From a virus, in IMG/VR virus record IMGVR_UViG_3300034152_001291, positions 60,704-124,703 of that record: a DNA stretch of 64,000 nucleotides, one strand, 5' to 3'. The notes under the pieces were generated by a model. It did not search any database. It was not told where the DNA came from and saw only the letters and a program-made list of their open reading frames with translations. A program made the position numbers and the translations under genes. Below, one piece after another: positions 28,707 to 49,562 of the stretch (its first letter is position 1; each line of letters starts with the position of its first letter).

Positions 28707-29117
28707 TCACTCCTTCTTGTTCATCTTCCCGTCCAGGGTGTCCCGGAGGACTTGGCCGAGACGATTCAGAACTGACCTCATCATGATCTTGTCTTTTCCC
28801 AGCACGATCCTCAGGAACGGGAAATCGTACTTCAGGCAGCGCCAGGTCACGCCGGCGTCTCCGTCTTCAGGGGTGAAGACGACGTCATCCATGGAGAGAT
28901 GAGGGGCGAACCGGTCGAGGACGAGGGATAGATCTTCGAGAAGAGGTTCTACGTCGTACCACATTGTGGATTGTGTAGGCTTCGGGCGCTTGTCATCGAT
29001 CTTCTCGAATCTCGAGAGGCCGATATTCCTCTGGTAGCGGAACGTGTTGATGGTCACGCTTCCGCCGGTCTGGATGTGGGCCCCGCACAGAGCCAGGAAG
29101 AGATCCTTCTCCATCAT
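28707..29117 (-). CDS. Hypothetical protein
   Basis: 136 residues, start overlapping the polymerase stop (ATGA). Contains a central TMWYDVEPLLEDLSL helix and an acidic FTPEDGDAGVTW turn. No recognised family. Confidence 0.6.
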   Translation of the reverse strand: MMEKDLFLALCGAHIQTGGSVTINTFRYQRNIGLSRFEKIDDKRPKPTQSTMWYDVEPLLEDLSLVLDRFAPHLSMDDVVFTPEDGDAGVTWRCLKYDFPFLRIVLGKDKIMMRSVLNRLGQVLRDTLDGKMNKKE

Positions 29118-32497: not shown

Positions 32498-32506
32498 CGC
32501 TCCTCG

Positions 32507-34066: not shown

Positions 34067-34074
34067 GTCTCCTC

Positions 34075-35070
34075 CTAAAATCCTAAGAGGTTCCTGAGAT
34101 CGTCCTTGGTCATCAGTTTGGGGTCCTTCGGAGGAACGATGTTCTGCGCCGCGACTCCATGAGCTACGAGCTCCTTCACGACTGTCGTTGCGGCGTTCTG
34201 CCCCTCTTGATCCGGATCGAGCATGACGTACACCACTCTCGGGGCCGCCTGGATGATCTTCCGGATCTTGCTCTTACCCAGGAAAAGTCCGATGAGGGCG
34301 ACTGCTCTTTCTCCCAGAGACAGGAAGTGCGCTGCGTCGAACGAGCCCTCGTGTACGAAGAGCCGCTCGCCCCTGGCGTAGTCGAGGAGGTGCTCTCCGT
34401 AGAGAAAGTGGCCCGAACTGAATTTGAAGAACGTCCCGTACTTCGCTCGTTTTCCCTCACGCTGGAGCGGTCGGTACTGGGCGCCGACGCATATCGTCCG
34501 TCCCTGAATTCTCGAAAGAACCGGGATGAGGACGGCATTCCTGATCTCGTAGGGTTCCTTGTCGTACCGGTAGCGGGTGGCCTGCTCGATCCACGAAAAT
34601 TTGAGCCAGCGAGCCACGCCGATCGGGACGCCTTTCGACTCGATGAACGAGACGCCTTCCGGCGGGATCCCCGTTCGGAAATACTGGGTCAGTTCGTTGT
34701 TGTAGTTGTTGATCTTGACTTTCTTTTCGACCTTCGGAGCAGGCGGCCTCGCCTTCCGGGTCTCGTCCTCGATCGTTCGGCTCGTGTCGAGGAGATTCAG
34801 AACCGCTCCCTGTGTGAGCGCGTTCAGGTCTTCCAGGGCGGTGACGAATTTCTTCCTGTAGCCGCAGGCGAAGCACTTCACGGAGGACGGTCCGTCCGGG
34901 CATATGTATGCGGTCATGGAAGGAGAGCGGTCATCTCCGTCGTCGTGGCGGTAGGCGGCCATGAAGCAGGAGAACTTGAAGTGGCTCTCCCCGGATTCGT
35001 GAATGTGACTCCTGATGATTCCGAGGTTCCGGAGTCCCTCGAGAATCGAGTACAGAGAATTTCGGTCCAT
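34075..35070 (-). CDS. DnaG-type primase
   Basis: 331 residues from ATG 35070 (GATAGGAAG upstream); an ATG at 35088 is also possible. N-terminal region with CPDGPSSVKCFACG, a zinc-binding motif related to CHC2. The TOPRIM domain shows FVHEGSFDAAHFL with its Glu and VYVMLDPDQEGQ with the DxD pair. The C-terminus is short with no helicase domain, consistent with a separate DnaB-like helicase at 38231. Confidence 0.87.
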   Translation of the reverse strand: MDRNSLYSILEGLRNLGIIRSHIHESGESHFKFSCFMAAYRHDDGDDRSPSMTAYICPDGPSSVKCFACGYRKKFVTALEDLNALTQGAVLNLLDTSRTIEDETRKARPPAPKVEKKVKINNYNNELTQYFRTGIPPEGVSFIESKGVPIGVARWLKFSWIEQATRYRYDKEPYEIRNAVLIPVLSRIQGRTICVGAQYRPLQREGKRAKYGTFFKFSSGHFLYGEHLLDYARGERLFVHEGSFDAAHFLSLGERAVALIGLFLGKSKIRKIIQAAPRVVYVMLDPDQEGQNAATTVVKELVAHGVAAQNIVPPKDPKLMTKDDLRNLLGF

Positions 35071-35078
35071 GAGACTTC

Positions 35079-38000
35079 CTATCCGCATGTTCCTTCCGTG
35101 AACAGACAGACCGCACACCTCTTGCAGGTTCCGTTGACCCGGATCATGAGGCTTCCGCATTGAGGACAGACGTCGCCGAGCGTTTGGGAGTTCGTTTCCG
35201 GCGCGGGATTTTTCTTGGGCATCTTTTCCTGGGAGGAGGTGCCTCCGCCGAGAAGTGCCGAGGACTCCTCGTCGAACTGCGCGAGGAACTTGAAGATGTA
35301 ATCCACCACCGAGGAGGCGCTGCGGATGTTGTCGTTGTCGGTCCAGCCCTTGGGGTCGAAGTTCATGTCGATCATCTTCTCGACGTAGACGATCAGCGGA
35401 ATTTGGTGCTGAAGGCCGATGCTGACGGACAGGGAAAGCGCCTCGAGAAGGCCGCGGAGAGACGAACCCTGCTTGGCCATGGAGACGAAGATCTCCCCGA
35501 CCTTCCTGTCTTCGGGGTAGAACCCCACGTCGAGGTAGCACTTCGACATGCCGAGTCTGAACGCGTGGTTGATCGCCGGGCGCGTCCTGGGAAGCTTCTT
35601 CTTCTGGGATCGGACCAGGTACTCGCCGGGAGATCCCGCGGCGGCCTTGCCCGCACCGCTGATGGGTTGATGGACTTTCGATCCGTCCCGGTAGACCGTG
35701 ATGCCTTTCAGCCCGAGCTTCCAGGACCGGACGATCAGACGCCGGAACTCTTCCTTGATCGTGTCCTTCGGGCATCCGATCGTGTTGGAGATCCCACCCG
35801 AGACGAATCCCTGGACGGCCGCAAGCATGAGAAGATGTCCATCCGAAGAGATGACCCTCTTCCCTTTGCCGTTAGGATAGGTCGTGTCGAAGACCGCCAG
35901 ATCCGTCTCCTTCAGGCCCGGCGCACCCTCGATCATGTGGTGGGTCTTGACGTGTTCGAGGATCTTCTCCTTCTCGAGGTCCTCGTAGCCCAAGGCGTCC
36001 AGGCCGAGAGGGATGGAGGTCAGCGGCATGAAGAGATGGCCGCCGTCCACGAGGGTCTTCTCGGTTGTCAGCCAGAAGCCGGCTTCGATTCCCGTGGTCG
36101 CGCAGTCCATCATGATCGACACGGTTCCCGTGGGCGCCATGAGTGTGACCTGGGAGTTGCGCACGCCGGATTTCGGGGCCCGCTTGAGGATCTCTTCCCA
36201 GATCTCCCTGGCCTTGTCGAGGAGGCTGCCGATCTCCGTCCCTTCGCGGGCGATCATATCGCTGACCTTCTCAGCGTGCATCTTGAGGACCCTGATCACA
36301 TCGCGCCTGTTCGAGGTGAACGACTCGAAGGGTCCGAGAGTCTCCGCCATGTCGATCGACGTGAGATAGGCCGCGCCCGTCATGAGCGCCGAGATCGTTC
36401 CCGCCCAGTTCCTCGCCTCGGGTGAGTCGTAAGGGAGACCCATCGACATGACGAGGCCGCCGAGGTTCGCGAAGTTCAATCCGAGCGGCCGGATCTTGTG
36501 GGAGTTCTCGGTGATCTCCGGGGTGGGGTACCCGCACAGGTCGACCAGGATGTCCTGGGCGATCAGCATGAGCCGCACGGCCTGGCTGAATTCCATCTCG
36601 AAGAAGAGGCCCTCCGGCAGCTCGAAGAACGCCATGAGGTTGATGGAGGCGAGATTGCACGCGGAGTCCGGGATCGAAAAGAACTCGCCGCAAGGGTTCG
36701 AGCTCAGGATTTCCCCCTCCTTCGGCACCGTGTGCCACTCGTTGATCGTGGAGTGGAACTGGATTCCCGGATCACCGCAGAAGTGCATGTTGCTGATGAT
36801 GCTGTCGAGGATCTTGTCAGCCTTGTGGGTGGCGACGGCGGCGCCGCTGATCACGGATTGGAGAGGCCACTCCCTTCCTTCGATCGCGGCCTTCATGAAG
36901 TCGTCGCTGAGACCGACGCTGAGGTTGGCGTTCTGACCGCGCACCGTCCGGTAGGCCTCGTCCGGCGTGTAGCCGGCCATGACGAGGCTTCGGGCCTTGC
37001 GCTCTTCCTGAGCCTTGAAGGAGATGAAGTCCGATCCGTCTTCCTTTCCGTTGTAGACGTCGGGGTGCCAGATGTCCAGGCGCTGGAGCTTCGAGGCTCT
37101 GCGCAGGATTCCCCCCGAGCGGATCACTCCCGCCCAGGCGTCGTATCCCAGGAAGAAGGACATAGGGCCCGACGCAAAGCCGCCTTTGGACAGGGGGTGG
37201 CCCGCCTCTCTCAGGGTGGAGAGGTTGACGCCGGAACCGGAGCCGCGGCTGAAGATTTTGACCTCGCTTCTCTGGATATCGGAGATGCTTTCGAGGTTGT
37301 CTTCGATCCCGAGGATGAAGCAGTTGTGAACAAGCACCCCCTCGCTGAGGTACCTACCGCTGCGCGTCTGTATGTCGTAAACCTTCTGCTCGCCCACCGA
37401 ATGAACGCCCACGATCTCTGGAAAGCGGATCTCCGGGCACTTCTTTCCCGGCAACCCGATGGAACGAAACAGCGCATGCGGATAAAGCCGCATCACCATC
37501 CCTGGCCGCAGACGATCGACCCTCTGCCATTCGATGCGTTTCGTTCGTCTGGAGGCATGGGCGCACACAAGATGGTCGGCGGTCGCCTCAACGCTGGTCC
37601 CGTCGCTCAGGTCGATGCGGAACACGGGCTTCGTCCCGTTGCACTTCACCGCGACAACCTGCGTCAGGCCATCGCCGTCATACACCGAAAGACCGATGAT
37701 GTTCTTGTCGACGATCTCGCCAATCGGCATAGGCCCCCTGGCGGTCGTAACCCTCGCATGATAGGGCTGGCAAGCCGACCCCTGGGGCTTGTCCATCGCC
37801 CCGACGTTGAAGAAGACCGGGGAGCTGAAGGCGGCCCGCTGACCGACGAGGAGGGCCTTGATCTCGTGGTTGAAGATCTCGGCATTCTTCTCATCGAAAT
37901 AACCTCCCTCGATTCCCTTCGCCGTGATCGTGTCGACGACCCTGTCGAACAGGGCCTTTATGCTGGCTTCCCGGCCGGGCTGGTTGAGGTGGCCCCGGAA

Positions 38001-38231
38001 GTATTTGGAGGCCGCGATGAATGCCGCTCGATCGCTCCACGCGGCTGGGACCTCTACGTCTTTCTGCTCGAAGACGATCTTCTCCTTGGTCCGGTGGACG
38101 ATGTCTCGCCTTTCCCAGGTGACCGCGTCGTAGGGGTGGACGGCTCGTCCGTCTCCGAGATTCCTCGTGAAGATACGATCGATCCGCAAGCCTTTCGACT
38201 TTCCTGGTTTCCTGCGAGCGTTTTTCTTCAT
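35079..38231 (-). CDS. nrdJ-like: Class II (B12-dependent) ribonucleotide reductase with mini-intein
   Basis: 1050-residue precursor, 900 after splicing, start ATG 38231 overlapping the helicase stop by one base. Catalytic landmarks: the Cys of GSAC/F, GSGSGVNLSTLR, SSNPCGEFF, and PTGTVSIMMD with GIEAGF. The C-terminal region has a zinc ribbon (CPQCGSL, CKRCAVC). Layout matches NrdJ. It makes dNTPs without oxygen or a small subunit but needs adenosylcobalamin, so the host must supply or import it. No nrdB or nrdD gene is seen nearby. Confidence 0.9.
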   Translation of the reverse strand: MKKNARRKPGKSKGLRIDRIFTRNLGDGRAVHPYDAVTWERRDIVHRTKEKIVFEQKDVEVPAAWSDRAAFIAASKYFRGHLNQPGREASIKALFDRVVDTITAKGIEGGYFDEKNAEIFNHEIKALLVGQRAAFSSPVFFNVGAMDKPQGSACQPYHARVTTARGPMPIGEIVDKNIIGLSVYDGDGLTQVVAVKCNGTKPVFRIDLSDGTSVEATADHLVCAHASRRTKRIEWQRVDRLRPGMVMRLYPHALFRSIGLPGKKCPEIRFPEIVGVHSVGEQKVYDIQTRSGRYLSEGVLVHNCFILGIEDNLESISDIQRSEVKIFSRGSGSGVNLSTLREAGHPLSKGGFASGPMSFFLGYDAWAGVIRSGGILRRASKLQRLDIWHPDVYNGKEDGSDFISFKAQEERKARSLVMAGYTPDEAYRTVRGQNANLSVGLSDDFMKAAIEGREWPLQSVISGAAVATHKADKILDSIISNMHFCGDPGIQFHSTINEWHTVPKEGEILSSNPCGEFFSIPDSACNLASINLMAFFELPEGLFFEMEFSQAVRLMLIAQDILVDLCGYPTPEITENSHKIRPLGLNFANLGGLVMSMGLPYDSPEARNWAGTISALMTGAAYLTSIDMAETLGPFESFTSNRRDVIRVLKMHAEKVSDMIAREGTEIGSLLDKAREIWEEILKRAPKSGVRNSQVTLMAPTGTVSIMMDCATTGIEAGFWLTTEKTLVDGGHLFMPLTSIPLGLDALGYEDLEKEKILEHVKTHHMIEGAPGLKETDLAVFDTTYPNGKGKRVISSDGHLLMLAAVQGFVSGGISNTIGCPKDTIKEEFRRLIVRSWKLGLKGITVYRDGSKVHQPISGAGKAAAGSPGEYLVRSQKKKLPRTRPAINHAFRLGMSKCYLDVGFYPEDRKVGEIFVSMAKQGSSLRGLLEALSLSVSIGLQHQIPLIVYVEKMIDMNFDPKGWTDNDNIRSASSVVDYIFKFLAQFDEESSALLGGGTSSQEKMPKKNPAPETNSQTLGDVCPQCGSLMIRVNGTCKRCAVCLFTEGTCG
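37323..37772 (-). other. Mini-intein in ribonucleotide reductase
   Basis: 150 residues (154-303 of the precursor), no endonuclease. Begins with the Cys of SAC (CQPYHARVTTARG), block B ATADHLVCA, block F VYDIQTRSGRYL, block G GVLVHN, +1 Cys (CFILGIEDN). Splicing restores GSACFILG, the active-site segment. Canonical and probably active; it cannot home by itself. Confidence 0.92.
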
Positions 38232-39535
38232 CACAGATGTCCCTCCAGGGTTTTTCCTCGGCCCGGTTTCGTGGCCTTGGGTTCTATGAAGACGGACACG
38301 GGATCCCACTTCATGTCGTAGAAGCTCCAGTTGTGGGTCCAGGGCCTCTGATCGCCGGCGTTCCGGGCCTTGCCGATCTTTATGACGACCTTGCCGTTCC
38401 TCTTCATTCTGAGGTCCTGGACGAGGTAGATGACGTTGTTGGAGATGTGGTTGAACTTGTCGCTCCCGCCCATCGAGAATTCATCGGCGCCCCAGTACCC
38501 CCTGCCCGACTTGTTGAGCTGCGCCGTGAGAAACCAGTGGCGGTGCGTGCGGAGGGAGACCCTCCGTACCTGTCTCAGGTTTTCGTTGATCTTCTCGAAG
38601 TCCTTCTGGGAGGAAGTCTCCGGGAAGTCGTAGAAGGCGTCGGCCACGACGAGGTGAGCCCCGAAGGCGCCTGCCTCCGCCTCTACCGCGTCGATGGTCA
38701 TGTCGGAGCCCGGATTCAGGTACAGGATGTTGGCCCAGTAGCCCGTGTTATTGTGCTGATCCGAAATGGTCTGCATGAAGCGTTCGCGCTGATCGGTCAG
38801 CAGGGTCCCCTTCAGGGTACGGTCGAAGTTCACCATGGCCGCCAGGGCGGCGAGCCTCTGGTTGATTTCCTCGTCCGTCATTTCCATCGAGGCGATGAAG
38901 ACCCGGAAGCCCAGCAGAGCCGCGTAGAGGGCGTGAATGAGCGAGAACCAGGTCTTGCCTACGCCCGACCGGGACACGATCGTAGTAATGTTTGCGGGGC
39001 GCCACTTGACGAGCGCTTCGTTGAGGGACAGGAAGTTGGGTTCGATGGGGATGCCGGGGTGTTCCCCGCGCTCGGTCTGGCAGTAGTAGTGCCACAGACC
39101 CATCGCGAGGTCTCTCGGTCTCGAGGGTCTGTTCTGGTAGTCGTAGGTCTCGCGGATGTTCTGGAGTCGGTCGATGCAGAACGCGAGAAAGGCGTGATGC
39201 TTCAAGGCCCCGGCGTTGAATTTCTGGGTGACCTCTTCGAGCGCATTGAAGATCTCCTGCCCGAGGTACGACTCCACGAGCTGCTCGAGGTAAACCGACG
39301 CCGCGGAGGTGCATTCGGAAGCGGGAGGAAGGGTCACGCCGAGATCGTTCACGAGAGTGTGAAATCGATCCGTGGACGGCATCTCGTTATGGTTCCGGTA
39401 GAAGGTCACCAGCCGGTCGAAGGCTGTCTTGTACGGCTCGGCCAGCATCTCCACCCGGAAACCGAGCTGGAAGAGTGTCTGGAAGTTCCCGTCGATCGCC
39501 TTCCTGAGAAGGCGCGCCTCGGTCGGGATGTTCAT
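38231..39535 (-). CDS. DnaB-like replicative helicase
   Basis: 434 residues. N-terminal helical domain, linker, then the RecA-like domain: Walker A SRSGVGKT (188-195), MEMTDEEINQR, LVVADAFYDF as Walker B, and TAQLNKSG (motif H3-like). It is a hexameric 5'-3' helicase and should partner with the primase and the O-like initiator. Confidence 0.85.
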   Translation of the reverse strand: MNIPTEARLLRKAIDGNFQTLFQLGFRVEMLAEPYKTAFDRLVTFYRNHNEMPSTDRFHTLVNDLGVTLPPASECTSAASVYLEQLVESYLGQEIFNALEEVTQKFNAGALKHHAFLAFCIDRLQNIRETYDYQNRPSRPRDLAMGLWHYYCQTERGEHPGIPIEPNFLSLNEALVKWRPANITTIVSRSGVGKTWFSLIHALYAALLGFRVFIASMEMTDEEINQRLAALAAMVNFDRTLKGTLLTDQRERFMQTISDQHNNTGYWANILYLNPGSDMTIDAVEAEAGAFGAHLVVADAFYDFPETSSQKDFEKINENLRQVRRVSLRTHRHWFLTAQLNKSGRGYWGADEFSMGGSDKFNHISNNVIYLVQDLRMKRNGKVVIKIGKARNAGDQRPWTHNWSFYDMKWDPVSVFIEPKATKPGRGKTLEGHL

Positions 39536-40026
39536 GCGATCCTCTTCACTCGGGGTCCGTAGGCCTTGATCAAAAGGTCGACCTCGCCCGCCTGTTCACC
39601 GAGAAGGATCGTCACCTTCCCGGCGTCCGCCGCCCGGATCATCAGGTGACTTCCCAGGTCCCGGAGCTCCTGCACCGTCAGGTCCGAGATCTGGGACACG
39701 ATCAGCACGTCCGTCGCCTCGACCATCTCCTCGACCGTCATCTCGGCGGGCTCGTACCAGATGTTCCTTCTCAACCAGGCGAGGGCCTGACGCGCAGTCA
39801 AAGAATCCGCCGTTTCCGCGTGGTTCGCCAGCGCCGCGAGAACCCTTGCGACGTCGTTTGCGGGGTCTTCTTTTTCGACGACGACGAGGCTTCCGTCCAT
39901 CAGGAAGCCCGGCTGCGTCCTCGGGAGGGCCTCCACGGCTTCGGCGATACCAATCGGATGTCGAACGTCCAGCAACCAGAGCTCCACCGCCCTGGTCTCG
40001 AACAGGGGGTCTTTCCGGATGACCAT
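39532..40026 (-). CDS. Hypothetical protein
   Basis: 164 residues, ATG 40026 directly after GAGGAGGGAGT, an excellent ribosome site. Mixed alpha/beta, beginning MVIRKDPLFETRAVELW, with LIVSQISDLTVQELRDLG later. No family found. It overlaps the helicase start by four bases. The upstream small gene runs through it in another frame. Confidence 0.65.
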   Translation of the reverse strand: MVIRKDPLFETRAVELWLLDVRHPIGIAEAVEALPRTQPGFLMDGSLVVVEKEDPANDVARVLAALANHAETADSLTARQALAWLRRNIWYEPAEMTVEEMVEATDVLIVSQISDLTVQELRDLGSHLMIRAADAGKVTILLGEQAGEVDLLIKAYGPRVKRIA

Positions 40027-40198
40027 ACTCCCTCCTCAGAATTTCGACCGTCTTCTCCACCAGGCCCTTCGCGACGAGCAGGTCCTTCGGGGGCGTTTCT
40101 CCCCGCTCGGCGATCTTCCGCATCTCCGTCTCGAGGCTCGCCGCGAGAGCGGACGCGTGGATGATCGCCGCCGCATCGTCGTCGATGCCTTGTTTCAT
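39596..40198 (-). CDS. Small gene with unclear end
   Basis: ATG 40198 overlaps the RNase H stop (ATGA), and the first 57 residues (MKQGIDDDAAAIIHASALAA, VEKTVEILRREYG) look real. After 40026 the frame continues for 144 codons as an Arg/Gly-rich out-of-frame reading of the next gene. A TGA is present in the +1 frame just before 40026, so a one-base insertion/deletion or a programmed shift would give a 55-60 residue protein. Confidence 0.45.
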   Translation of the reverse strand: MKQGIDDDAAAIIHASALAASLETEMRKIAERGETPPKDLLVAKGLVEKTVEILRREYGHPERPPVRDQGGGALVAGRSTSDWYRRSRGGPPEDAAGLPDGRKPRRRRKRRPRKRRRKGSRGAGEPRGNGGFFDCASGPRLVEKEHLVRARRDDGRGDGRGDGRADRVPDLGPDGAGAPGPGKSPDDPGGGRREGDDPSR

Positions 40199-40890
40199 CT
40201 CCTGGCCTCCTCCCTTGAACCCGGAAGTCCGGTCCAAGCCATTTGAACGTAGGGCGTGAAAAGAGGACACACCCGGTACTTCTTGCGCTTGAGGTACGAG
40301 AAGCCGAGCGTCCAGTCCTTCTTGTTGACGCGCTTCCCCGCCTTGCAGGGATAGTTGGCGCAGAGAAGACATTTCGTTTCCGTTTCCGGATGGGCGGGGA
40401 CGTCCAGATGAATCGTCTTCTGCTGGGCCCTTGCCCTGAGCGCAGCGTAGTCGGCGAGCACGTTCAGGAAGGATCCCGCGTGCCCCTTCACGTGAAGACC
40501 GACGACTTTCTGCTCGGAGGATTCGATCCGCTCCTTGAGGAGGTTGACGAGATCCAGGTTCTTCTTCACCGTCCATTCCGGATTGAACAGCGCGCCGAGG
40601 CACCACTGCGAGTCCGAGAAGAAGGTGACCTGCTGCTCGTCGAAGAAGGTCATGGCTGAGGTGAGCAGAAGGATGGCGCTGAGCTCCATCCGGTTGTTCG
40701 TGACGCTCTCCCTTCCGATCTGGTGCTCTGCGTAGACGACGACGCGGTCCACGACGGGTTCCGGCGAGGAGGGAAGAGCCCTCCTCGACCGGACAATCAC
40801 CGCCGCGCAGGAACCGACGGAGAGGTCCTCCGTCTTGTTGTTGTCGATGCTACCATCGACGAAAGCGAGAAGGGGAAGAGACCCGGTCAT
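40195..40890 (-). CDS. RNase HI-like protein (2)
   Basis: 231 residues, start overlapping the upstream stop. RNase HI residues: LLAFVDGSI, NNRMELSAILL, VTFFSDSQW and VKGHAGSFLNVLAD, giving D-E-D-D. A C-terminal extension of about 90 residues has CLLCANYPCKAGK, a possible zinc knuckle. Probably primer removal. It differs clearly from the RNase H at 18976. Confidence 0.87.
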   Translation of the reverse strand: MTGSLPLLAFVDGSIDNNKTEDLSVGSCAAVIVRSRRALPSSPEPVVDRVVVYAEHQIGRESVTNNRMELSAILLLTSAMTFFDEQQVTFFSDSQWCLGALFNPEWTVKKNLDLVNLLKERIESSEQKVVGLHVKGHAGSFLNVLADYAALRARAQQKTIHLDVPAHPETETKCLLCANYPCKAGKRVNKKDWTLGFSYLKRKKYRVCPLFTPYVQMAWTGLPGSREEARR

Positions 40891-41864
40891 GACTTCTCCT
40901 GGAGCATCTGTGTGTACAGGTTCTCCTCGGGGGCACCGAAGCCCTTCCTGATCTGACTGCACGAGATCTCCGGCTCGGACCCGGTGAGGTCGACGTAGAT
41001 CTCGTGGTGAAGGGCATCCCCTCCGTCTTTCAGGAAGGAGAGGATGTACTTGATCAGCTTCGGGGACTCGGGCTTGGGATTGTTGAGGACGAAGATGAAC
41101 TCCGGTTTCTTCTCTTTCGCGAAGGACTTGATCGCCTCGGCGCGCTGAGCGTTCCGGGGATCGGGACCTCCCCAGGCGGGAGCCAGCATGAGCCAGACGG
41201 TCAGGCCGCCTGCTTCCGTGGGAGCGGTCTCGAACCCGAAGATGCTCGAGAGGTGCGGGCGCTTCTTGAGAAGATTCGTCACCGCTTCCAGGAACATCTC
41301 GTAGGAAGCCTCCTCGGCCTTCTCCACGTTCACGAGGATCGGCTGGAACTCGAGGTCCTTGTTCAGCCGCACGTCGACGGTGATCTTCCCCAGGATCTTG
41401 GCGAGGTCGACCACGGGCATGAGGGGCTCGATACCGATCATGGCCCGGATCCGGGGGGCCGTGTAGTTCAGGGACTCCGAGTCCATCCGCAAGGGGCGGA
41501 CGATGAGGCTCGAGAGGTCCTTCTCGAGTCGAACCGGGATCTGGCCGCCGATCCGGTCCTGGAGGCGGTTGACCAGGGAGAAGATCTGGCTCTTGGTTTC
41601 GTTCCCGAGCCAGCTCAGGCGATGGGCGCTCCTGGCGATCTCGATCGCGGTTTCCCGGTCGGTCTGGATCAGGAAGTCGACGAGACGCTGCCTGATCTCG
41701 ACGGATTCCTCTTCGGCGTCCCGCACCCACCTCAGGATCTCTTCCTCCGCCTCCGTGAGCTCGACCTTGTCGCCGGACTCGTAAATCTTGTCTCCGATCT
41801 TGAAGGTCTTCTGATCGACGATGCCCGTGAACAGAGGAGGCTGTTGTTCCGGTTGCTGGGTCAT
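40887..41864 (-). CDS. Hypothetical replication-region protein
   Basis: 325 residues from ATG 41864 (ATGA overlap with the initiator stop). The N-terminal 120 residues are acidic helices; the C-terminal half has a beta/alpha pattern (PILVNVEKAEEASYEMFLE, LTVWLMLAPAWGG, EFIFVLNNPKPE). No recognised motif. Position directly behind the initiator suggests a helicase-loading or other replication role, unproven. Confidence 0.6.
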   Translation of the reverse strand: MTQQPEQQPPLFTGIVDQKTFKIGDKIYESGDKVELTEAEEEILRWVRDAEEESVEIRQRLVDFLIQTDRETAIEIARSAHRLSWLGNETKSQIFSLVNRLQDRIGGQIPVRLEKDLSSLIVRPLRMDSESLNYTAPRIRAMIGIEPLMPVVDLAKILGKITVDVRLNKDLEFQPILVNVEKAEEASYEMFLEAVTNLLKKRPHLSSIFGFETAPTEAGGLTVWLMLAPAWGGPDPRNAQRAEAIKSFAKEKKPEFIFVLNNPKPESPKLIKYILSFLKDGGDALHHEIYVDLTGSEPEISCSQIRKGFGAPEENLYTQMLQEKS

Positions 41865-42967
41865 TTTTCTTCTCCAAACATCTCGTCTGCGCTTTCGAAC
41901 GTGGGGATATCCGTGGGCATCCTGCCCCGGGGATCCCTTCTTTTCTTCCCGGGCTTGTGGAAGGTCTCGACCAGGTAGTCGACGTGGCGTCGGATCATGT
42001 AGATCGAAAGCCTCCCGTCGTGGCTGATGACCTCGGACGTCCTGGACCAGGACTCGACCGCCTTGTGAAGGACGGCGGCGACCTCGGTCTTGGAAAGACC
42101 GTGCCCGTCCATGAACTTCTCGAGGGCGTCGTTCATGAGCTTGGCGTAGCGGGGAGGGACGTGGCGGACCTGGGGATTGATGAAGTCCGCGAACTCGACG
42201 TTGTAGAACCCGCACATCGTCTGGACGAACTTGCAGAATCCCTTGCCCCTAAAGGTTTCTGCCTTGTTCATGTGGCTGCGGACCTGGAGGCGTAGGCGCC
42301 TCTTGGCCTCCGCCTTCTCTTTCTTCCGCTGAACTTCGTCCGCGATATCGAGGAGGTTTCTCCGGCTCTCCGAGCCTCCGTGAGTCTGGTCCTTTTCCAT
42401 TTCTTCACACCCCCCACACTCCGTCACGTTTCGTGACGGAGTATCTGTATCCTTTGTCTCTTTCCTTTGTCTTATTATGTCCGCCATATGTGGCGGGGGT
42501 GGTCCGCCACCGGTGGCGGGGGGTCCCGCCATATGTGGCGGGGGTAGCTCTTCTGGAGATAGGGGGGCGCCGTCCATCTGGCGGATCCCGCTCCGGTCCC
42601 GGAGGCCCCCTGCGGAGGTCAGAGTCGGGTCGATTTCAGCGATGACCTTGCTGTCGATCGGGCGCGGGATCGTGTAGGTCCGCTCATCGACGGTCCAGCG
42701 GTCGATGAGGCCGACGCTCTTGAGGGTGGCGAGGTGGCGCTCCACCGATCTCCGTCCCAGGCCGAGGTCCGCTGCCATCCTTCTCACCGAGAACCAGATG
42801 GGCTTCTCCTCGAAAGGCCACCCGGTCCGGAAGATGACGTAGGCGTACAGGAGGCGGGCCGGGAAGGGAAGGTTGCGGGCGGTCATGACCTCGACGGGGA
42901 GGCGGCTGAAGCGCAGGGCCTGGTCGGGGCAAAAATACCCCTCGCCCAATTTTTCAACTGGGTCCAT
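41861..42967 (-). CDS. Lambda O-like replication initiator with wHTH
   Basis: 368 residues from ATG 42967 (GGGGGATCGAC upstream). A winged-helix domain at about 33-90 (FSVRRMAADLGLGRRSVERHLATLKSVGLIDRW) matches the HTH_36 / phage O N-terminal type. A Pro/Gly-rich linker (143-183) is encoded by the iteron and AT-rich DNA. The C-terminal domain is helical and basic. The arrangement of DNA-binding N-domain, origin inside the gene, and DnaB-like helicase in the same operon follows the lambda O logic. Confidence 0.75.
   Translation of the reverse strand: MDPVEKLGEGYFCPDQALRFSRLPVEVMTARNLPFPARLLYAYVIFRTGWPFEEKPIWFSVRRMAADLGLGRRSVERHLATLKSVGLIDRWTVDERTYTIPRPIDSKVIAEIDPTLTSAGGLRDRSGIRQMDGAPLSPEELPPPHMAGPPATGGGPPPPHMADIIRQRKETKDTDTPSRNVTECGGCEEMEKDQTHGGSESRRNLLDIADEVQRKKEKAEAKRRLRLQVRSHMNKAETFRGKGFCKFVQTMCGFYNVEFADFINPQVRHVPPRYAKLMNDALEKFMDGHGLSKTEVAAVLHKAVESWSRTSEVISHDGRLSIYMIRRHVDYLVETFHKPGKKRRDPRGRMPTDIPTFESADEMFGEEK
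42418..42541. other. Candidate replication origin inside the initiator gene
   Basis: Left part: an inverted repeat with 11-base arms (ACTCCGTCACG / CGTGACGGAGT, 3-base loop) at 42418-42442. Middle: a T-rich, 32% GC stretch at 42443-42480 in GC-rich surroundings, suitable for unwinding. Right: three 16-base palindromic iterons starting at 42481, 42504 and 42526, period 22-23. This matches the make-up of phage origins such as ori-lambda in gene O. Confidence 0.72.
42481..42541. repeat. Three palindromic iterons
   Basis: Units CCGCCATATGTGGCGG, CCGCCACCGGTGGCGG, CCGCCATATGTGGCGG at 42481-42496, 42504-42519 and 42526-42541. The outer two are identical; only the four central bases differ in the middle one. 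Spacing of about two helical turns fits cooperative binding of a dimer. Confidence 0.9.
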
Positions 42968-43052
42968 GTCGATCCCCCATTTTTCCGGCAGAAGCTTTCG
43001 CGGCGTTGCACCGCCGAAGCAACCCGGAGTGTAAGCCGGGGGAGAGTGGCCG

Positions 43053-43721
43053 TCAATCCTTTTCGGAAAAAAGAATCGAGACGTACTCATTCCAGACGAA
43101 CATGCGGTGTCCACCCAGCACCTTGAGGTAGGTTGCCTGCGCCGTTTCGGAGTCCTTGAGAAGGAGAAGATGATCGGCGAAGACCGTGGTTCGGATCGAC
43201 TTCTCGACCGCCTTGTTCGTGAGCTGGAACGCGGCCTCGTCCGTGCCGGTTGTCGTCTTCTGTCGGAAGAAGAAGACGTAGCGCTCCGGGCCCGATTTCC
43301 GGCTCAGTGTTCTCGGGATTTCTCCCAGCACTCGGCGGGGATTGAACACGAGACCCTTCCTCTTCCTCCTCATGAGGGGGCAGGCCTTCTTGAGCGTGGG
43401 AGGAAGGGGGTCGTCCAGCGCCCGCTGGGACGGGCTGAAGAATTCGGGGCTCCAGAGTCGCACCGCGCCTCTCCCTTCGTTCAGGAACCAACCCTTGTGG
43501 CGGTAGACGTCGGTTTGGAAGAGGGATCGGACGGCCTTGGACATCGTGGCCATGTTTTCGAATCCGACATCCGCCTCCTGGCGCCCGGGTTTCAGGCGCC
43601 AGGAGAGGATGCGGAGGTACTTTTCCAGCTCGTCCTCCAGGTTCTCAGGGACCCGGCATCCCTCCTCCTCGAGAGTTTTCTTGAGATTGTCGAGGTCGAG
43701 AGAATCGACGAGTCTCTTCAT
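43053..43721 (-). CDS. Hypothetical protein
   Basis: 222 residues from ATG 43721 (TGATG overlap with the previous stop). Begins with helices (MKRLVDSLDLDNLKKTLEEE), then a basic middle (LMRRKRKGLVF) and a beta/alpha end. No family recognised. It is the last gene before the initiator and may belong to either module. Confidence 0.6.
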   Translation of the reverse strand: MKRLVDSLDLDNLKKTLEEEGCRVPENLEDELEKYLRILSWRLKPGRQEADVGFENMATMSKAVRSLFQTDVYRHKGWFLNEGRGAVRLWSPEFFSPSQRALDDPLPPTLKKACPLMRRKRKGLVFNPRRVLGEIPRTLSRKSGPERYVFFFRQKTTTGTDEAAFQLTNKAVEKSIRTTVFADHLLLLKDSETAQATYLKVLGGHRMFVWNEYVSILFSEKD

Positions 43722-44869
43722 CACGAGTCTCCTGAGATGATCTGCGTCTTGAGGTCAGCGCCCTTTCCCGTTCTTGCGTCGAGGAGGTTCATGACCGGTT
43801 CGGCGAGTTCGATCTCCTTCGCTTTCTCTTCGATCTGCTTCGCGATACCGGCCAGGACTTTCTGCCGGACCGATCCCTTGATGGCGAGCATGACGGCGGG
43901 GTTGTAGGTGTGCTCCTTCATCGGGAGCTTGCAATGCGCGCACGGGACCGAGACGTCGATGCCGGTGCCGGTGCTCTTGAAGTGCTGAGGGCCTATTACG
44001 AAGGGGTGGGGACGGATGTGTCCGGAATACGAAGTAGGACCTGAGTAGGCCTGACGGACGCCGCGGAACTCCAGGTTCTCGGGCATCTCGACTTCGTGGC
44101 GGAGGATCACCTCGAAGTCTTGGTCGGTCATTTTCTTCTTGAGGGGACGGAGTCCCTCCTCCTTTCTCCTCTTTTGGTAGAGGTACCAGGCAAGGGAATC
44201 GTTGGTGAAGATCTCGATCTGCTTCTCCGTCTGCAAGCGGCGCACCCAGTCGAATGCCTTCGGGTCCTCGGCGATGCGCGTGGCGCGGCAATGGCGGTAG
44301 AGGAGCCCCGGCCCGGCGTTCACGTGGAGATTGCCGATACAGACGCCGGCGATTTCGAGGCGCCCCGAGATCCCGACTTGCAGACACGATTCGACCGCCT
44401 GCATGAGCCTCTCGGGTTCCCAGGATGGATCGACGGGCGTCGGGCTGTCGAAGTATCCCATCCACCAGGTCCGGTAGGGGGCGGGGGTTTTTCCGGTGTC
44501 GTGGCCGTAGAGGTTGAGGTCGAGGACGACTCCGTTCTTCTCCGCGTAGTCGCTCATCACGTTGACGGCCCAGGCCACGACTTCGTCGGGAAACGAGGAT
44601 CCCCTCGGATCCTCGTCCCTGACTCCGAGGTGCTGCTCGTAGAGGTCGAGGCAGTTGCCGGACGCACCGCAGGAGCTAAGGGAGAAGTAGTTTGCCATGA
44701 TCTGCATCTCCCCTTCGATCTCCACGCTGTTTTCGCTCTTCAGGACGGCCTTTGTCTCGCCTCTGTCCCCGACCCACACCCCGGATCTTTGCGTCAGAGA
44801 GGGCCTGTCGTCGGGCGGGATCGGGTGCTGCCAGACCAGCGTGCTGGCGTTGAGGTGATATTTCTTCAT
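43721..44869 (-). CDS. Hypothetical protein of the Ubl cassette
   Basis: 382 residues behind CAAGGAGGAAACTC. Cys-containing start (SSCGASGNCLDLYEQHL), a middle with NLYGHDTGK and LHVNAGPGLLYRHC, a CAHCKLPMKEHTYNP zinc-like motif near 325, and a basic helical end. It follows the ubiquitin-like gene after 36 bases. It may correspond to the divergent PRTRC protein F of plasmid cassettes, or be a substrate or ligase-like partner; neither is shown by sequence. Confidence 0.5.
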   Translation of the reverse strand: MKKYHLNASTLVWQHPIPPDDRPSLTQRSGVWVGDRGETKAVLKSENSVEIEGEMQIMANYFSLSSCGASGNCLDLYEQHLGVRDEDPRGSSFPDEVVAWAVNVMSDYAEKNGVVLDLNLYGHDTGKTPAPYRTWWMGYFDSPTPVDPSWEPERLMQAVESCLQVGISGRLEIAGVCIGNLHVNAGPGLLYRHCRATRIAEDPKAFDWVRRLQTEKQIEIFTNDSLAWYLYQKRRKEEGLRPLKKKMTDQDFEVILRHEVEMPENLEFRGVRQAYSGPTSYSGHIRPHPFVIGPQHFKSTGTGIDVSVPCAHCKLPMKEHTYNPAVMLAIKGSVRQKVLAGIAKQIEEKAKEIELAEPVMNLLDARTGKGADLKTQIISGDS

Positions 44870-44905: not shown

Positions 44906-45160
44906 CTATCCCTTCTCGTTGGCCGCCATCTTGAAGTGGACGTGCTGGCCGTCCTCGAGGACGGTGGAGCCGGACACGACGTCGCCGTCCACCAGGGCGA
45001 CCATCGACGCGGAGAGGTTCAGCTGGTCCGAGAGCCGGTTGCGGAGCTTCGAGACCGTGACGATTTCGCCCTCTTCGAACTCGACCGGGATTTCGGGGTA
45101 TTTCCGGAGGTCGTGGTCCTGCTCTCGGCCGACGGTGACTTTTCTGAGGAAGTCCGACAT
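44906..45160 (-). CDS. Ubiquitin-like (beta-grasp) protein
   Basis: 84 residues behind TTGAGGAGAAAGAAGAA. Pattern of a beta-grasp fold: VTVGREQDHDL as strands 1-2, TVSKLRNRLSDQLNL as the helix, MVALVDGDVVSGSTVLEDGQHVHF as the later strands with the ubiquitin/ThiS-like LxdG turn. It ends ANEKG, so a C-terminal Gly is exposed without processing, like the Lys-Gly ends of PRTRC protein C. Likely activated by the adjacent E1-like enzyme. Confidence 0.75.
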   Translation of the reverse strand: MSDFLRKVTVGREQDHDLRKYPEIPVEFEEGEIVTVSKLRNRLSDQLNLSASMVALVDGDVVSGSTVLEDGQHVHFKMAANEKG

Positions 45161-45873
45161 TTCTTCTTTCTCCTCAAGGAAGGACGTCTGAACGCCGTCA
45201 TCCTGGCACGCGCCAGGTCGAGGGCGATCTCGTTCTCCTTCGGTTTTTCTTCGGGATTCTCTTCCACGCGTTGGAGCATGATGGCCATGGCCAGGGCGGT
45301 GCCCCAGTTAGCCATCGCCGTCTGGCCCCCCGACGACACCAGGCATCCCCCGTCGCCGGGAAGCGCGCCGCTGTTCTGGAGGATTTCGGGAGCGATGTCC
45401 GAGATCTTGGGGGTTCTGTTCCTGTTTTTCCGGCGCCAGAAGATCTGGGCCTGGCCCGAGGTCTCCTCGTTGCCGCCGCAGATGAGGACGGCGTCCTTGA
45501 GCTTCTCGACCTCGGACTCGAGGAACACGCGGGTGGAGTTGTTGTCCACGCAGGCCAGGACGATGACGCCCTCCTTGAGCCAGACGGCCCGGTGGGTTTC
45601 GACGGTCCTCGTGTTCAGGAAGACCGGGACGGCGTGGATCAGGAGCGTTGTCGTTGAGAGCCGGGACTCGATGGCGCTCTTGGCGGCCTCGGCCTTGTTG
45701 GATCCGATCATGCTCTCGAACCACTGCCGGGACATGTTGGAGACTTCGATCTCGTCGCCGTCGATCAGGTACAGGTTGCAGGGCTCGTTCTTGGAGATCA
45801 GGTATCGCACCAGCCAGTCGTAGAGGTAGTTCGTGATCCCGCCACAGCCCACGATGGCGTACGAGTTCGGCAT
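45019..45873 (-). CDS. ThiF/E1-like ubiquitin-activating enzyme
   Basis: 284 residues. Adenylation signature: IVGCGGITNYL (GxGGxG-like, 7-17), LYLIDGDEIEVSNMSRQ (D38, D40, N46, R49), K60. GGNEETSGQ (133-141) and the later Cys C177 in GDGGCLVSS match the PRTRC-type ThiF pattern, C177 being a candidate catalytic Cys. The last 47 codons overlap the ubiquitin-like gene in another frame and read as Ser/Arg-rich, so the true C-terminus may be nearer residue 235. Confidence 0.83.
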   Translation of the reverse strand: MPNSYAIVGCGGITNYLYDWLVRYLISKNEPCNLYLIDGDEIEVSNMSRQWFESMIGSNKAEAAKSAIESRLSTTTLLIHAVPVFLNTRTVETHRAVWLKEGVIVLACVDNNSTRVFLESEVEKLKDAVLICGGNEETSGQAQIFWRRKNRNRTPKISDIAPEILQNSGALPGDGGCLVSSGGQTAMANWGTALAMAIMLQRVEENPEEKPKENEIALDLARARMTAFRRPSLRRKKKCRTSSEKSPSAESRTTTSGNTPKSRSSSKRAKSSRSRSSATGSRTS

Positions 45874-45888
45874 GGTATTCCTTTCAAG

Positions 45889-47424
45889 TCAGGGTTCTTC
45901 GAGTTCGATGACCGTTCGGTACCTTTCGCACTGCGGACAGCCGTCTGTGTTTCCCAGGTAGTCCCAGCACGCCGGGCAGAATTCCGGAGGACCCTTGCGC
46001 TCGTTGCATGCCAGACAGAATCCGTCCTCGAGATGCTCGAGACAGAAGGCGCAGATGTTGCAGTGCCGGCAGTAGGTCGTCATCCCGTCGATCTCTTCGA
46101 AGGGCTCTCCGCACTTTGGGCAGACGCACTCGTTCTCGCATTTCCCGTCCTGCATCGGGAGGCCGCAGACAGGACATTCTTCCCACTCCTCGGTTTCGTC
46201 CTCGTCTTCCTCCTCTTCGGGAATGTCACGGTCGAGAACGTCCGTGTCCCTGTCCCACTCGTCGAGGTCGCTCTCGTCTTCGGGGACGTCGCGGTCGAGA
46301 ATATCCGCTGACATATTCCCGAGGAGGATGAGGCCCGAGGAGTGCCGGGTCTCGTGCTGGCGTCTCGTCAGCAGGCTCAGGATCTCGCTGTGGATCTCCC
46401 AGGCGAACTCTGCCGCGTCGCTGCCCTTGTCTTTCACCAGGTATTCCGCGATCTCGTAGGGGGAGGCTCCCCAGAGGACCTGACGGAGGCTTGCCTGGGC
46501 CGGGCTGGAGGATTCCGTCCTTCTGTACCCCAGGAACTCCTCCACATGGGCCGAGAATGAGTGCCTCTCTTGGAGGCTCTGGCAGGCCGCCTGGACGCGC
46601 CCGTAGGTGTTGCGCCAGTCCCCGGTCTTTTTCCTGGGAGGCTTGACCTCTTCGATGTCGAGAGTCTTTCCGGCCAACTCCTCCGCCTCTGCCCGGGTCT
46701 CGGTCCACTGGAGGATTCTGCCGCTGCCGTTCTTCACGAGGTAGCCCTTCTTCTTGGACCTGGCGAAGTCGAGGGTCTGGAATCCCTTGGTGAAGAAGGC
46801 GAACTCCTCGTCTTCCACCTTCACGGATTCGACCTCTTCTTTCGTGAAGGGCTGGACGTTGACGGAGATGCGCTGCCCTTCTCCGGCGAAAGAGGCCACG
46901 GCTTGCGGAATCTCGTTGCAGACGTATCCGAAGACGATGTGGATTCCGAGGCTTTCGAGATCGTCCCTGTCGTCCGTCGACGAGAAGAAGGCGCCCATGT
47001 GCGCGCCGTGGGAGTGGATCGTGCCGACGATGCTCCCAGAGATGTGGTAGTTGAGATCGCCGGGTCCGATTGCTCCGAAGTCCGCCTTGTCGAGCACGTA
47101 CCCGCCGTTCCGCCAGCGGAGGACGAGAATGAACTCGCTGTTCCATGTCTCAGCCGCTCTCCGGCAAACGTCGAGCGCCTTCAGGATGGTCTCGCGGGGA
47201 ACCGGGTCCGCCCTCTTGAGGAAGAGTCCGGGATTGATCTCGGGAAGGTCGGGGTTGAAGGTCTTCCGGACCGCGTAGGCCTCGACCGGAAGATCGGGCC
47301 CGCCGATCTTCACGATCTTGAAGACGCCGTTCGATCCGAGTGTGTAGTGGAGAGGACCTGCCGTCTTCTGGGCCTGCGAGACCGAAGAGACGATTGAGGG
47401 AGCATCCGGAAGGACGACTTTCAT
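45889..47424 (-). CDS. JAMM/JAB protease with zinc-ribbon array
   Basis: 511 residues from ATG 47424 (ATGA overlap). JAMM motif: Glu E97 in NSEFILVL, H137-S-H139, then Ser148/149 and Asp151/152 (FFSSTDD). This is the zinc-dependent isopeptidase fold that removes ubiquitin-like proteins. Residues about 395-425 repeat ILDRDVPE / VLDRDIPE with acidic runs. The last 90 residues hold seven Cys pairs (CPVCG, CPKCG, CRHCNICAFC, CLAC, CPAC, CPQC), a RING- or ribbon-like array unusual for JAB proteins. Confidence 0.85.
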   Translation of the reverse strand: MKVVLPDAPSIVSSVSQAQKTAGPLHYTLGSNGVFKIVKIGGPDLPVEAYAVRKTFNPDLPEINPGLFLKRADPVPRETILKALDVCRRAAETWNSEFILVLRWRNGGYVLDKADFGAIGPGDLNYHISGSIVGTIHSHGAHMGAFFSSTDDRDDLESLGIHIVFGYVCNEIPQAVASFAGEGQRISVNVQPFTKEEVESVKVEDEEFAFFTKGFQTLDFARSKKKGYLVKNGSGRILQWTETRAEAEELAGKTLDIEEVKPPRKKTGDWRNTYGRVQAACQSLQERHSFSAHVEEFLGYRRTESSSPAQASLRQVLWGASPYEIAEYLVKDKGSDAAEFAWEIHSEILSLLTRRQHETRHSSGLILLGNMSADILDRDVPEDESDLDEWDRDTDVLDRDIPEEEEDEDETEEWEECPVCGLPMQDGKCENECVCPKCGEPFEEIDGMTTYCRHCNICAFCLEHLEDGFCLACNERKGPPEFCPACWDYLGNTDGCPQCERYRTVIELEEP

Positions 47425-47648
47425 GAGAATGCCTCCGTGAATTTCGAGTAGCAGGGGTCGTGACTGCGCTTTCGCCCGAGAACGATGCGCAGATGGGAGA
47501 CGAAGCTCCTTCCATGGAGAGCGTTTCCGAGGGGGCCCCTGGGCGGGCGTCCCTCCATGGCGCGACAGATCTCCGCCAGGGCATCGGACTCGTACTCGAT
47601 CTGCTCGCACTCCTGCATGGCGATCGCGAAGAGGTTGAAGTTTTTCAT
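47421..47648 (-). CDS. Hypothetical small protein in the Ubl cassette
   Basis: 75 residues from ATG 47648 (overlaps the E2-like stop). MKNFNLFAIAMQECEQIEYE helix, then a basic segment (SFVSHLRIVLGRKRSHDP). Both ends overlap neighbours by four bases, so it is locked into the cassette. No family recognised. Confidence 0.6.
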   Translation of the reverse strand: MKNFNLFAIAMQECEQIEYESDALAEICRAMEGRPPRGPLGNALHGRSFVSHLRIVLGRKRSHDPCYSKFTEAFS

Positions 47649-48313
47649 ATGAGTTCTCCGAACTTCAGGCTTGTCTGTAGCCACGACCACTGGCAGCACT
47701 GATGGGGGTCGTGGATGAGGTTCGACTCCTCCTCCCACTTGTCCATGATTTCTCCGACTCCTCTCGGACCTGCGTCCGGGGCGTACTCCCTTCCGAAGGG
47801 GTTGTAGGACAGGCTCTGGAGAATGTCCGAGTTGTATTTGGACGTGTCGAACTGGTGAATGACGACGAGAGGACGCTCGGCGAGCGGATAGGACTTCGTG
47901 GCCGACCCGAGATTGTCGGGCATGCAGACCTTTCCGCTTCTCTCCACGTTGGGGAGCGGGGCGTAGTAGAGGGGGTCCGACAGGTCCGACGCGAACTTCT
48001 TCATGAAGCGCAGGGTCGTCGACTGGCAGAAGCCGCCCGTAAACGACATCCGGAAGACGCGCCAGGGGACCGCGATGCGCCAGGAGCGGCTGCCGTAGAC
48101 CACCTCTATGAACTTCGGCGGGGTCATGACGGCGAAGATTTCTTCGGAGTTCGTCTTCTGGTAGGCCACGGTTCCGTATGGCAGGAGCGGGACGTGCACG
48201 CGTCTGGTCTGAATCTTTGCGAACAGGTGGGAGATGGATGTCTTCCTGACCCGGGTTACCGACAGCATTTCTGCGCTGTCTTCGTCCTCGGAGAGGAGGA
48301 TGATGTTCGGCAT
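47645..48313 (-). CDS. E2-like ubiquitin-conjugating protein
   Basis: 222 residues from ATG 48313 with AAGGAGG upstream. YYAPLPNVERSGKVCMPDN (117-134) closely matches the E2 active-site pattern HPNv-x-x-x-G-k-(I/V)-C, with C130 as catalytic Cys. The overall order of strands before this site fits the UBC fold as in Prok-E2 family D / PRTRC protein B. It would take the ubiquitin-like protein from the E1-like enzyme. The start lies within the reverse transcriptase 3' end (58-base overlap). Confidence 0.73.
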   Translation of the reverse strand: MPNIILLSEDEDSAEMLSVTRVRKTSISHLFAKIQTRRVHVPLLPYGTVAYQKTNSEEIFAVMTPPKFIEVVYGSRSWRIAVPWRVFRMSFTGGFCQSTTLRFMKKFASDLSDPLYYAPLPNVERSGKVCMPDNLGSATKSYPLAERPLVVIHQFDTSKYNSDILQSLSYNPFGREYAPDAGPRGVGEIMDKWEEESNLIHDPHQCCQWSWLQTSLKFGELI

Positions 48314-49359: not shown

Positions 49360-49360
49360 G

Positions 49361-49402
49361 CTACAACGCTGCCAACAGGGCCTTGAGAACCGCCAGGATC
49401 AT
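49361..49402 (-). CDS. 13-residue hydrophobic leader peptide
   Basis: MILAVLKALLAAL with a perfect AGGAGG (49413-49408) five bases before the ATG. Its TAG ends one base before the ATG of the reverse transcriptase, so the two should be translationally coupled. Could be a regulatory leader or a small membrane-active peptide like type I toxins. It is too short for statistical support. Confidence 0.55.
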   Translation of the reverse strand: MILAVLKALLAAL

Positions 49403-49562
49403 CGCCGCCTCCTTTCTTCAAAAACCGTGGAAAGCCAGAGGTGGACAAGGGGGAGGGAGACACGGTGCCATTCGGTCGCGTCTCCTCCCCCTTGTCCTTG
49501 GAGGAGTAAAAGCCCAGAGAGGAAGAGGCGGGGGCCCACAGATGTGAGCCCCCGCCCGCCGT
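49403..49562 (-). ncRNA. Hairpin-rich RNA before the reverse transcriptase (retron-like candidate)
   Basis: 160 non-coding bases. Hairpin 1 (49527-49556): GGCGGGGGC pairs with GCCCCCGCC and is extended by CACA/TGTG, seven bases past the upstream gene stop, so it may be an attenuator. Hairpin 2 (49443-49497): an 18-bp stem (GGACAAGGGGGAGG arm) with one bulge and an 18-base loop. A long stem just upstream of a retron-type RT is the layout of msr-msd. No branching guanosine or a1/a2 pair could be proven. Confidence 0.45.

Follow-up and report, generated by a model that had tools for sequence, protein, structure and literature searches.

Can a phage carry its own genes both for attaching a ubiquitin-like modifier (Ubl) to proteins and for removing it again? 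The question is raised by a cluster of minus strand genes in a stretch of 64,000 nucleotides (hereafter the window; bases 60704-124703 of the 124,703-base IMG/VR virus record IMGVR_UViG_3300034152_001291), in which a first-pass annotation had recognised an E2-like protein, a JAMM isopeptidase, a ThiF/E1-like enzyme and a beta-grasp protein and had proposed a complete set for conjugation and deconjugation. The proteins encoded make it likely that the cluster is a complete, probably functional cassette for Ubl conjugation and deconjugation of the PRTRC-like type, and the proposal is well supported: the proteins are homologous to the expected families, their catalytic residues are conserved, and the gene order and independent relatives agree with it. 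The coordinates, lengths and motifs given earlier were found to be correct, whereas the count was not: four adjoining genes had been described and five are present, including a 75-residue open reading frame (ORF) between the E2 and JAMM genes. By its genes, the source is a tailed phage, most likely a myovirus; family matches were found to a tail-sheath-like protein, a head-maturation-protease-like ORF, DNA polymerase A, ribonucleotide reductase, a DnaB-like helicase and a Toprim primase.

Conserved residues and profile matches of the cassette proteins

Profiles were built from the relatives with the window left out and were searched against all ORFs of the window. The ThiF, JAMM, E2 and Ubl proteins were found with E-values of 2.4e-40, 3.7e-26, 4.4e-15 and 2.6e-8, respectively, and every other window ORF had an E-value of at least 0.6 with these profiles. 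When single sequences were compared with Pfam, the ThiF protein (PF00899, E=3.4e-16) and the JAMM protein (Prok-JAB, E=8e-6) were found over the cut-off, the E2 protein was found below it (E=0.008) and the Ubl was unmatched. The catalytic residues named for the E2, JAMM and ThiF proteins in the first-pass annotation did not vary in the alignments, which comprised 18-34 relatives with identities of about 20%.

The E1-like protein was found to contain G9, G11, G12, D38, D40, N46, R49, Q50, K60, D110 and C177, all invariant in 19 ThiF sequences; the Gly-rich nucleotide loop (GCGG), the DGD and N-x-x-R-Q motifs, the K and D of the adenylation site and the Cys were thus all present, and C177 is the candidate catalytic Cys. 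The PRTRC_ThiF model was also matched (E=7e-10). The ThiF homology stops near residue 232 of the 284-residue ORF, and the last approximately 50 residues were found to be an out-of-frame overlap with the Ubl gene and not ThiF sequence. A programmed frameshift fusion of ThiF and Ubl across this 142-bp overlap was considered and set aside, since the Ubl can be translated from a start codon of its own, preceded by GAGGAG, and visual inspection showed no slippery heptamer.

The E2-like protein was found to contain N122 and C130 within PNVERSGKVC, giving the active-site motif PN-x4-G-x2-C. The C130 residue was invariant in 20 sequences, and N122 and C130 together were invariant in a larger alignment of 34. 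In eukaryotic E2s, the asparagine of the HPN motif and the catalytic cysteine are found at a similar spacing. The window protein itself scored 16.4 bits with Pfam Prok-E2_D, under the 25-bit cut-off, and the same family, and no other, was found to match 15 of the 20 aligned E2 members (E<=0.01). The AlphaFold2 (AF2) model contained a helix and a five-strand meander followed by the Cys and then by helices, at a predicted local distance difference test (pLDDT) score of only 55. This model is too poor for Foldseek, so the assignment to the UBC fold, a feature on which the earlier proposal had been made to depend, is based on sequence, that is, on the Prok-E2_D relatives and the PN-x4-G-x2-C motif.

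The JAMM protein was found to contain E97, H137, S138, H139, S148 and D151, invariant in 18 JAMM sequences, with a spacing of 8 residues between H139 and S148 in the window protein and of 7 in the relatives. The PRTRC_A model matched it with E=1.6e-8 and matched 18 of the 18 aligned members. The C-terminal part, a feature absent from the first-pass annotation, was found to be long, CxxC-rich and zinc-ribbon-like.

Two kinds of Ubl were found among the cassettes: a PRTRC_C-like kind ending in GTKG or GNKG, and a second kind ending in EKG, ENKG or ESKG, sometimes followed by 1-4 further residues. The window Ubl was assigned to the second kind by the profile match given above and by hhalign (probability 95%; score 45.5, whereas none of 150 shuffles in which the last three residues were kept exceeded 19.2). 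An earlier second-type profile without the cassettes L088, L089 and L049 had given no more than a hint (E=0.45 in a search of all ORFs; score 25 against a shuffle maximum of 21), and the assignment was settled by their addition. Kinship with the PRTRC_C-type (GTKG) Ubls was rejected, hhalign being no better than with shuffles. The proposal had been made to depend on a beta-grasp fold of the 84-residue protein, and this fold was borne out by the AF2 model, which contained the beta-grasp order (pLDDT 61), and by the Ubl of L088, the nearest relative, which was found to match PF02597 ThiS over the cut-off (E=1e-6). Of the 50 best Foldseek matches of the model, almost all were FUBI, ubiquitin, SUMO, MoaD or ThiS proteins (probabilities up to 0.99, E at least 0.17). 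K83 and G84 were invariant in the Ubl alignment (A4), the C-terminal Gly being present. In the ThiF tree, the window was found on a long branch (2.95) within the subgroup of the second Ubl type (support 92/90); the window Ubl and ThiF fall independently with the same subgroup, so the two lines of evidence agree.

Tandem Ubls, each copy ending in GTKG, were found beside the E2, JAMM and ThiF genes of some relatives, with three copies in Vibrio phage D69, five in L031 and two each in L009, L011 and a Cytobacillus plasmid, and the other Ubls of relatives were found to end in KG followed by 0-4 residues, several single Ubls having a short tail. Both are as expected of precursors that would be cut after KG by the JAMM protein of the cassette. 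In the window Ubl, KG is the very end of the chain, and no maturation would be needed.

Related cassettes and comparison with known systems

Single-protein searches of IMG/VR with E2 and ThiF gave no close relative, and no significant match to JAMM or E2 was obtained by tblastn in INPHARED, although a weak JAMM match in Salmonella phage Arash later proved real. The ThiF searches led to Arash, Vibrio phage D69, Bacillus phage KLEB27-3 and plasmid cassettes. A scan of IMG/VR with the JAMM alignment gave 35 loci, with E2 adjoining in all 35 and ThiF in 34 (the 35th ends at the contig end), and a scan with the ThiF alignment gave 45 loci, with E2 nearby in 42. Fourteen further cassettes, including L088, were found in a scan of bacterial genomes. 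Related cassettes were found in about 70 IMG/VR contigs; a terminase match was present in 16 of 30 and 19 of 41 cassette records with two different models, and some short IMG/VR contigs may be of plasmid or chromosomal-island origin.

The nearest cassette found, L088, is carried by a contig of a Lentisphaerae metagenome-assembled genome (MAG; JANYBI010000548.1) and was found to contain the same order as the window, with E2 followed by a small ORF (103 residues against 75 in the window), JAMM with zinc ribbon, ThiF and a ThiS-like Ubl. The proteins share about 20-31% identity with those of the window, the Ubl ends in GEKG with a tail CLAA, and the 4.4 kb contig may be viral or chromosomal. Arash, D69 and KLEB27-3, all isolated phages, were found to contain E2, JAMM and ThiF in the same order as the window. 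They are not its close relatives, and Arash and D69 differ from it in a PRTRC_C-type Ubl (GTKG) located upstream and in a protein of 230-320 residues between Ubl and E2. The genes are named singly in GenBank, as in the 'PRTRC_A domain-containing protein' of KLEB27-3.

Like the PRTRC cassettes of plasmids, the window was found to contain a ThiF-like E1, a JAB protein, an E2 of the Prok-E2_D type and a small Ubl with terminal KG, all within one cluster. The best NCBIfam models were PRTRC_A (TIGR03735) for JAMM, PRTRC_B (TIGR03737) for E2 and PRTRC_ThiF (TIGR03736) for E1, with scores of 34.4, 11.8 and 38.7 bits against cut-offs of 101.8, 131.45 and 144.75 bits, respectively, and PRTRC_C (TIGR03738) was unmatched. 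Unlike in PRTRC, the window Ubl is ThiS-like, its gene is last and not first, the tail of JAMM is CxxC-rich and the cassette is borne by a phage. For the helical PRTRC-type protein, located between Ubl and E2 in relatives, five window neighbours scored like shuffles, although this protein diverges fast and could be missed, and no match to the ParB-related or PRTRC D, E and F proteins was found among the 10 window proteins scanned with NCBIfam. Given the scores far below the cut-offs, a Ubl that does not resemble PRTRC_C and the failure to find the helical gene, the system of the window is a relative of PRTRC rather than PRTRC proper, and PRTRC-like is the fitting name; the comparison with PRTRC in the first-pass annotation was right in kind and does not hold in the strict sense.

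The E1, E2 and JAB logic and the covalent tag are shared with Bil (BilABCD), an anti-phage Ubl system, and with Cap2 and Cap3 of the type II cyclic oligonucleotide-based antiphage signalling system (CBASS). In CBASS, unlike in the window, E1 and E2 are fused and the CD-NTase is tagged, and the window E1 was found to match the Bil and CBASS models weakly. Operons of the present kind were predicted as type 6d by Iyer, Burroughs and Aravind in 2006 (PMC1779556), with which the window shares four stand-alone proteins: a Ubl with C-terminal Gly, a JAB protein, an E1 without rhodanese domain and an E2 with the conserved Cys and no classical His. It differs from type 6d, listed for bacterial taxa (Table 1, row 6d), in having no identifiable helical protein and no downstream His of E2, and in the addition of a retron-like reverse transcriptase (RT) and of the 75-residue ORF. 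The lambda-type TAPI and TAPK (Iyer 2006, row 5) also combine a Ubl and a JAB protein in phages, but as tail assembly genes without E1 or E2, and this reading was dropped as both E1 and E2 are present in the window.

Operon and reverse transcriptase neighbourhood

The genes of the run (Table 1) were found in the transcription order RT, E2, 75-residue ORF, JAMM, ThiF, Ubl, 382-residue ORF, 222-residue ORF, replication-initiator-like gene and RNase H-like gene, followed by the replication genes. The remainder of the run contained replication-initiator-like, RNase H-like, DnaB-like helicase, ribonucleotide reductase, Toprim primase and DNA polymerase A genes, the RNase H-like gene being assigned by sequence reading only. 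Along the stretch bounded by the RT and RNase H-like genes, gaps were found to be at most 85 bp, with overlaps between most genes. Since the small gaps and overlaps extend from RT onward, the cassette belongs to the replication run, as its leading part, and is not a separate island. The run does not start at E2, the RT and E2 genes sharing 58 bp.

Table 1. Positions of the cassette genes, their neighbours and the poly-Ubl genes of relatives
Feature	Position	Strand	Basis or remark
Retron-like reverse transcriptase (RT), 367 residues	48256..49359	-	PF00078, retron models
E2-like (Prok-E2_D / PRTRC_B-like), 222 residues	47645..48313	-	PNVERSGKVC; Prok-E2_D; window-free profile
75-residue ORF between E2 and JAMM	47421..47648	-	4-bp overlap with each neighbour; function unassigned
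JAMM isopeptidase (Prok-JAB / PRTRC_A-like), 511 residues	45889..47424	-	Prok-JAB, PRTRC_A, catalytic residues
E1-like ThiF-family adenylyltransferase, 284-residue ORF	45019..45873	-	PF00899, PRTRC_ThiF, invariant residues
Ubl, ThiS/MoaD-type beta-grasp modifier, 84 residues, ends NEKG	44906..45160	-	profile; AF2 model and Foldseek
382-residue ORF, 36 bp 3′ of Ubl, same operon	43721..44869	-	no family assigned
Remainder of minus strand run, replication genes	29114..43721	-	family matches, gene spacing
Poly-Ubl genes beside E2-JAMM-ThiF (phages and plasmid)	L003:379-1170, L031:4850-5956, L009:5132-5554, L011:5244-5669, L006:1550-1891		2-5 copies

No convincing family match was found for the 75-residue and 382-residue ORFs in the library scans, and the latter is unlike the variable protein that separates Ubl and E2 in related cassettes; both are candidates for a substrate or an adaptor. 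Two RNase H-like genes were present in the window, at 40195-40890 (in the cassette run) and at 18976-19422. LAGLIDADG or intein-splicing domains were found in DNA polymerase A (29114-32497), ribonucleotide reductase (35079-38231) and the head-maturation-protease-like ORF (575-3187), so that three core genes apparently contain inteins.

The RT was found to match PF00078 (E=1.3e-19) and, below the cut-offs, the retron models retron_St85 (E=4e-32) and PADLOC RT_III-A (E=4e-36), and its motif C reads YCDN in place of YADD. Among 67 cassette records searched whole, an RT was present in 11 and was located within 5 kb of the cassette in nine of these; no RT match was found in the records of Arash, D69 and KLEB27-3. 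An RT near the cassette was also found in L021, L011, L030, L036, L071, L081 and L097, the last being an archaeal MAG contig with the same neighbourhood. The RT-bearing records occupied several distinct positions in the ThiF tree, with five label changes of which at least two are forced by well-supported branches, and with one record per lineage the closeness of RT and cassette gave a combined p of about 0.01 under a simple placement model. The association is suggestive. It is considered distinctly unlikely, though conceivable, that in some phages Ubl conjugation and RT work together as a single unit, in which the RT or its DNA product would be regulated by the cascade or would help to pick the targets.

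A long near-perfect hairpin (GGACAAGGGGGAGGAGACGCG ... CGTGTCTCCCTCCCCCTTGTCC) was found on the minus strand at 49360-49562, between the terminator-like hairpin of the upstream gene and the RT, and is a possible retron msd; no RNA family was above the threshold in an Rfam search near the RT. The region further upstream of the RT (49563-50063) was found to encode a protein with EEEVEEEVEEE repeats at the C-terminus. In the Cytobacillus plasmid, a gene annotated as 'reverse transcriptase-like protein' is located 3′ of ThiF (L006:6794-7468).

Proposed function and alternative explanations

The genes, their families, the conserved catalytic residues and the gene order were directly established, and from these we infer each catalytic step and the reversibility of the modification. 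The ThiF-like E1 would bind ATP and adenylate Gly84 of the Ubl, which would be handed on, probably via Cys177 of E1, as a thioester to Cys130 of E2, followed by the joining of Gly84 to lysines of target proteins by E2. The JAMM protein, with zinc on H137, H139 and D151 and with E97 as the base, would cut the isopeptide bond, and would also mature the precursors in relatives whose Ubls contain residues after KG or occur as tandem poly-Ubl.

As for the targets, phage proteins are the first guess, in view of the position of the cassette, first in the replication operon, and of the detection of Arash E1, E2 and JAMM in purified particles, with five unique peptides for gp246 (E1), three for gp247 (JAMM) and two for gp248 (E2) (PMC10585845, Table 2). 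Proteins of phage replication or of the virion are tentatively favoured on this basis, at a little under an even chance, and host proteins including defence factors are a less probable though still plausible choice; for host polymerase or defence proteins, which had been named as possible targets in the first-pass annotation, no specific support was found in the analysis. The Ubl gene of Arash (L002:107-307) was found to be unannotated, gp251c being called over the same stretch in another frame, and its product was therefore possibly left out of the proteome search.

Several observations weigh against a working conjugation cascade. With the poor E2 model, Foldseek gave no UBC match, and the enlarged E2 profile gave none that was convincing among the PDB chains. 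The Ubl contains a single terminal Gly, as sulfur carriers may have. No E3 or obvious substrate gene was found, and we know of no biochemistry for this branch of Ubl systems. The downstream His of the E2s of row 6d of Iyer et al. was found to be a Ser at the aligned position in the window (YNSDI), the position being mostly occupied by Asn in phage relatives (SPFNNDL) and by His in plasmid-like ones (FTHPN). The Arash proteome comprises 116 proteins, and carry-over of abundant non-structural proteins was allowed by its authors (PMC10585845).

In a sulfur carrier pathway, the alternative to conjugation, the ThiF protein would thiocarboxylate a ThiS-like carrier, from which sulfur would enter a cofactor or modified nucleotide made by the phage, and JAMM would act as a processing peptidase. 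The nearest relative of the Ubl does match ThiS, the ThiF and MoeB families match the E1 almost as well as PRTRC_ThiF, and operons of the ThiS type that contain JAB and E1 and lack E2 are known (PMC1779556). However, an E2 with invariant Cys accompanies JAMM in 35 of 35 loci and ThiF in 42 of 45, the E1-like proteins of operons with E1, E2 and JAB are reported to be without a rhodanese domain (PMC1779556), and no recognised sulfur-metabolism family was found among the genes scanned around the cassette, which makes this explanation very unlikely. A role in anti-phage defence or superinfection exclusion, in which a protein of a competitor or an immune enzyme would be tagged as in Bil or type II CBASS, is suggested by the known comparable bacterial Ubl systems, which are anti-phage (Jenson 2023, PMC10097602), by the weak matches of E1 to the PADLOC E1-E2 and BilD models and by the overlap of the E2 gene with a retron-like RT, a common defence component. 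It is nevertheless quite unlikely, as the cassette is located within the replication run of the phage and not in an accessory island, no CD-NTase or toxin-like effector was found among the scanned genes, and the cassette types persist inside phage clades.

Counter-defence, with host immune or replication proteins being tagged or stripped of tags by the cassette, is compatible with the presence of such cassettes in phages of very different hosts, and JAMM could in principle strip the tags set by Ubl defences of the host; an antagonist would however need less than a whole cascade with its own Ubl, no specific evidence was found, and the explanation is regarded as doubtful. That the cassette is a decayed, inactive passenger from a plasmid is highly improbable: the long ThiF branch, the divergent Ubl and the YCDN of the neighbouring RT could be read as decay, whereas the four genes were found to contain no frameshift or stop, the overlaps are tight and the catalytic residues are all kept. 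The reading as a conjugation and deconjugation cassette is thus preferred.

No paper describing phage cassettes of this type was found in the open-access literature, subscription journals and preprints being outside the scope of the search; the distribution among phages, the second Ubl type, the poly-Ubl genes and the RT neighbourhood are new. Bacterial Ubl conjugation has so far been known mainly as a weapon of the cell against phages, as in CBASS and Bil. If the proposed function is true, a phage with its own modifier and isopeptidase would bring reversible protein tagging into the phage life cycle, and the poly-Ubl genes of phages would be a viral counterpart of the polyubiquitin genes. The isolated relatives Arash, D69 and KLEB27-3 make the question of the targets of PRTRC-like Ubls, open since 2006, testable in lytic infection, and re-analysis of an existing virion proteome could partly address it.

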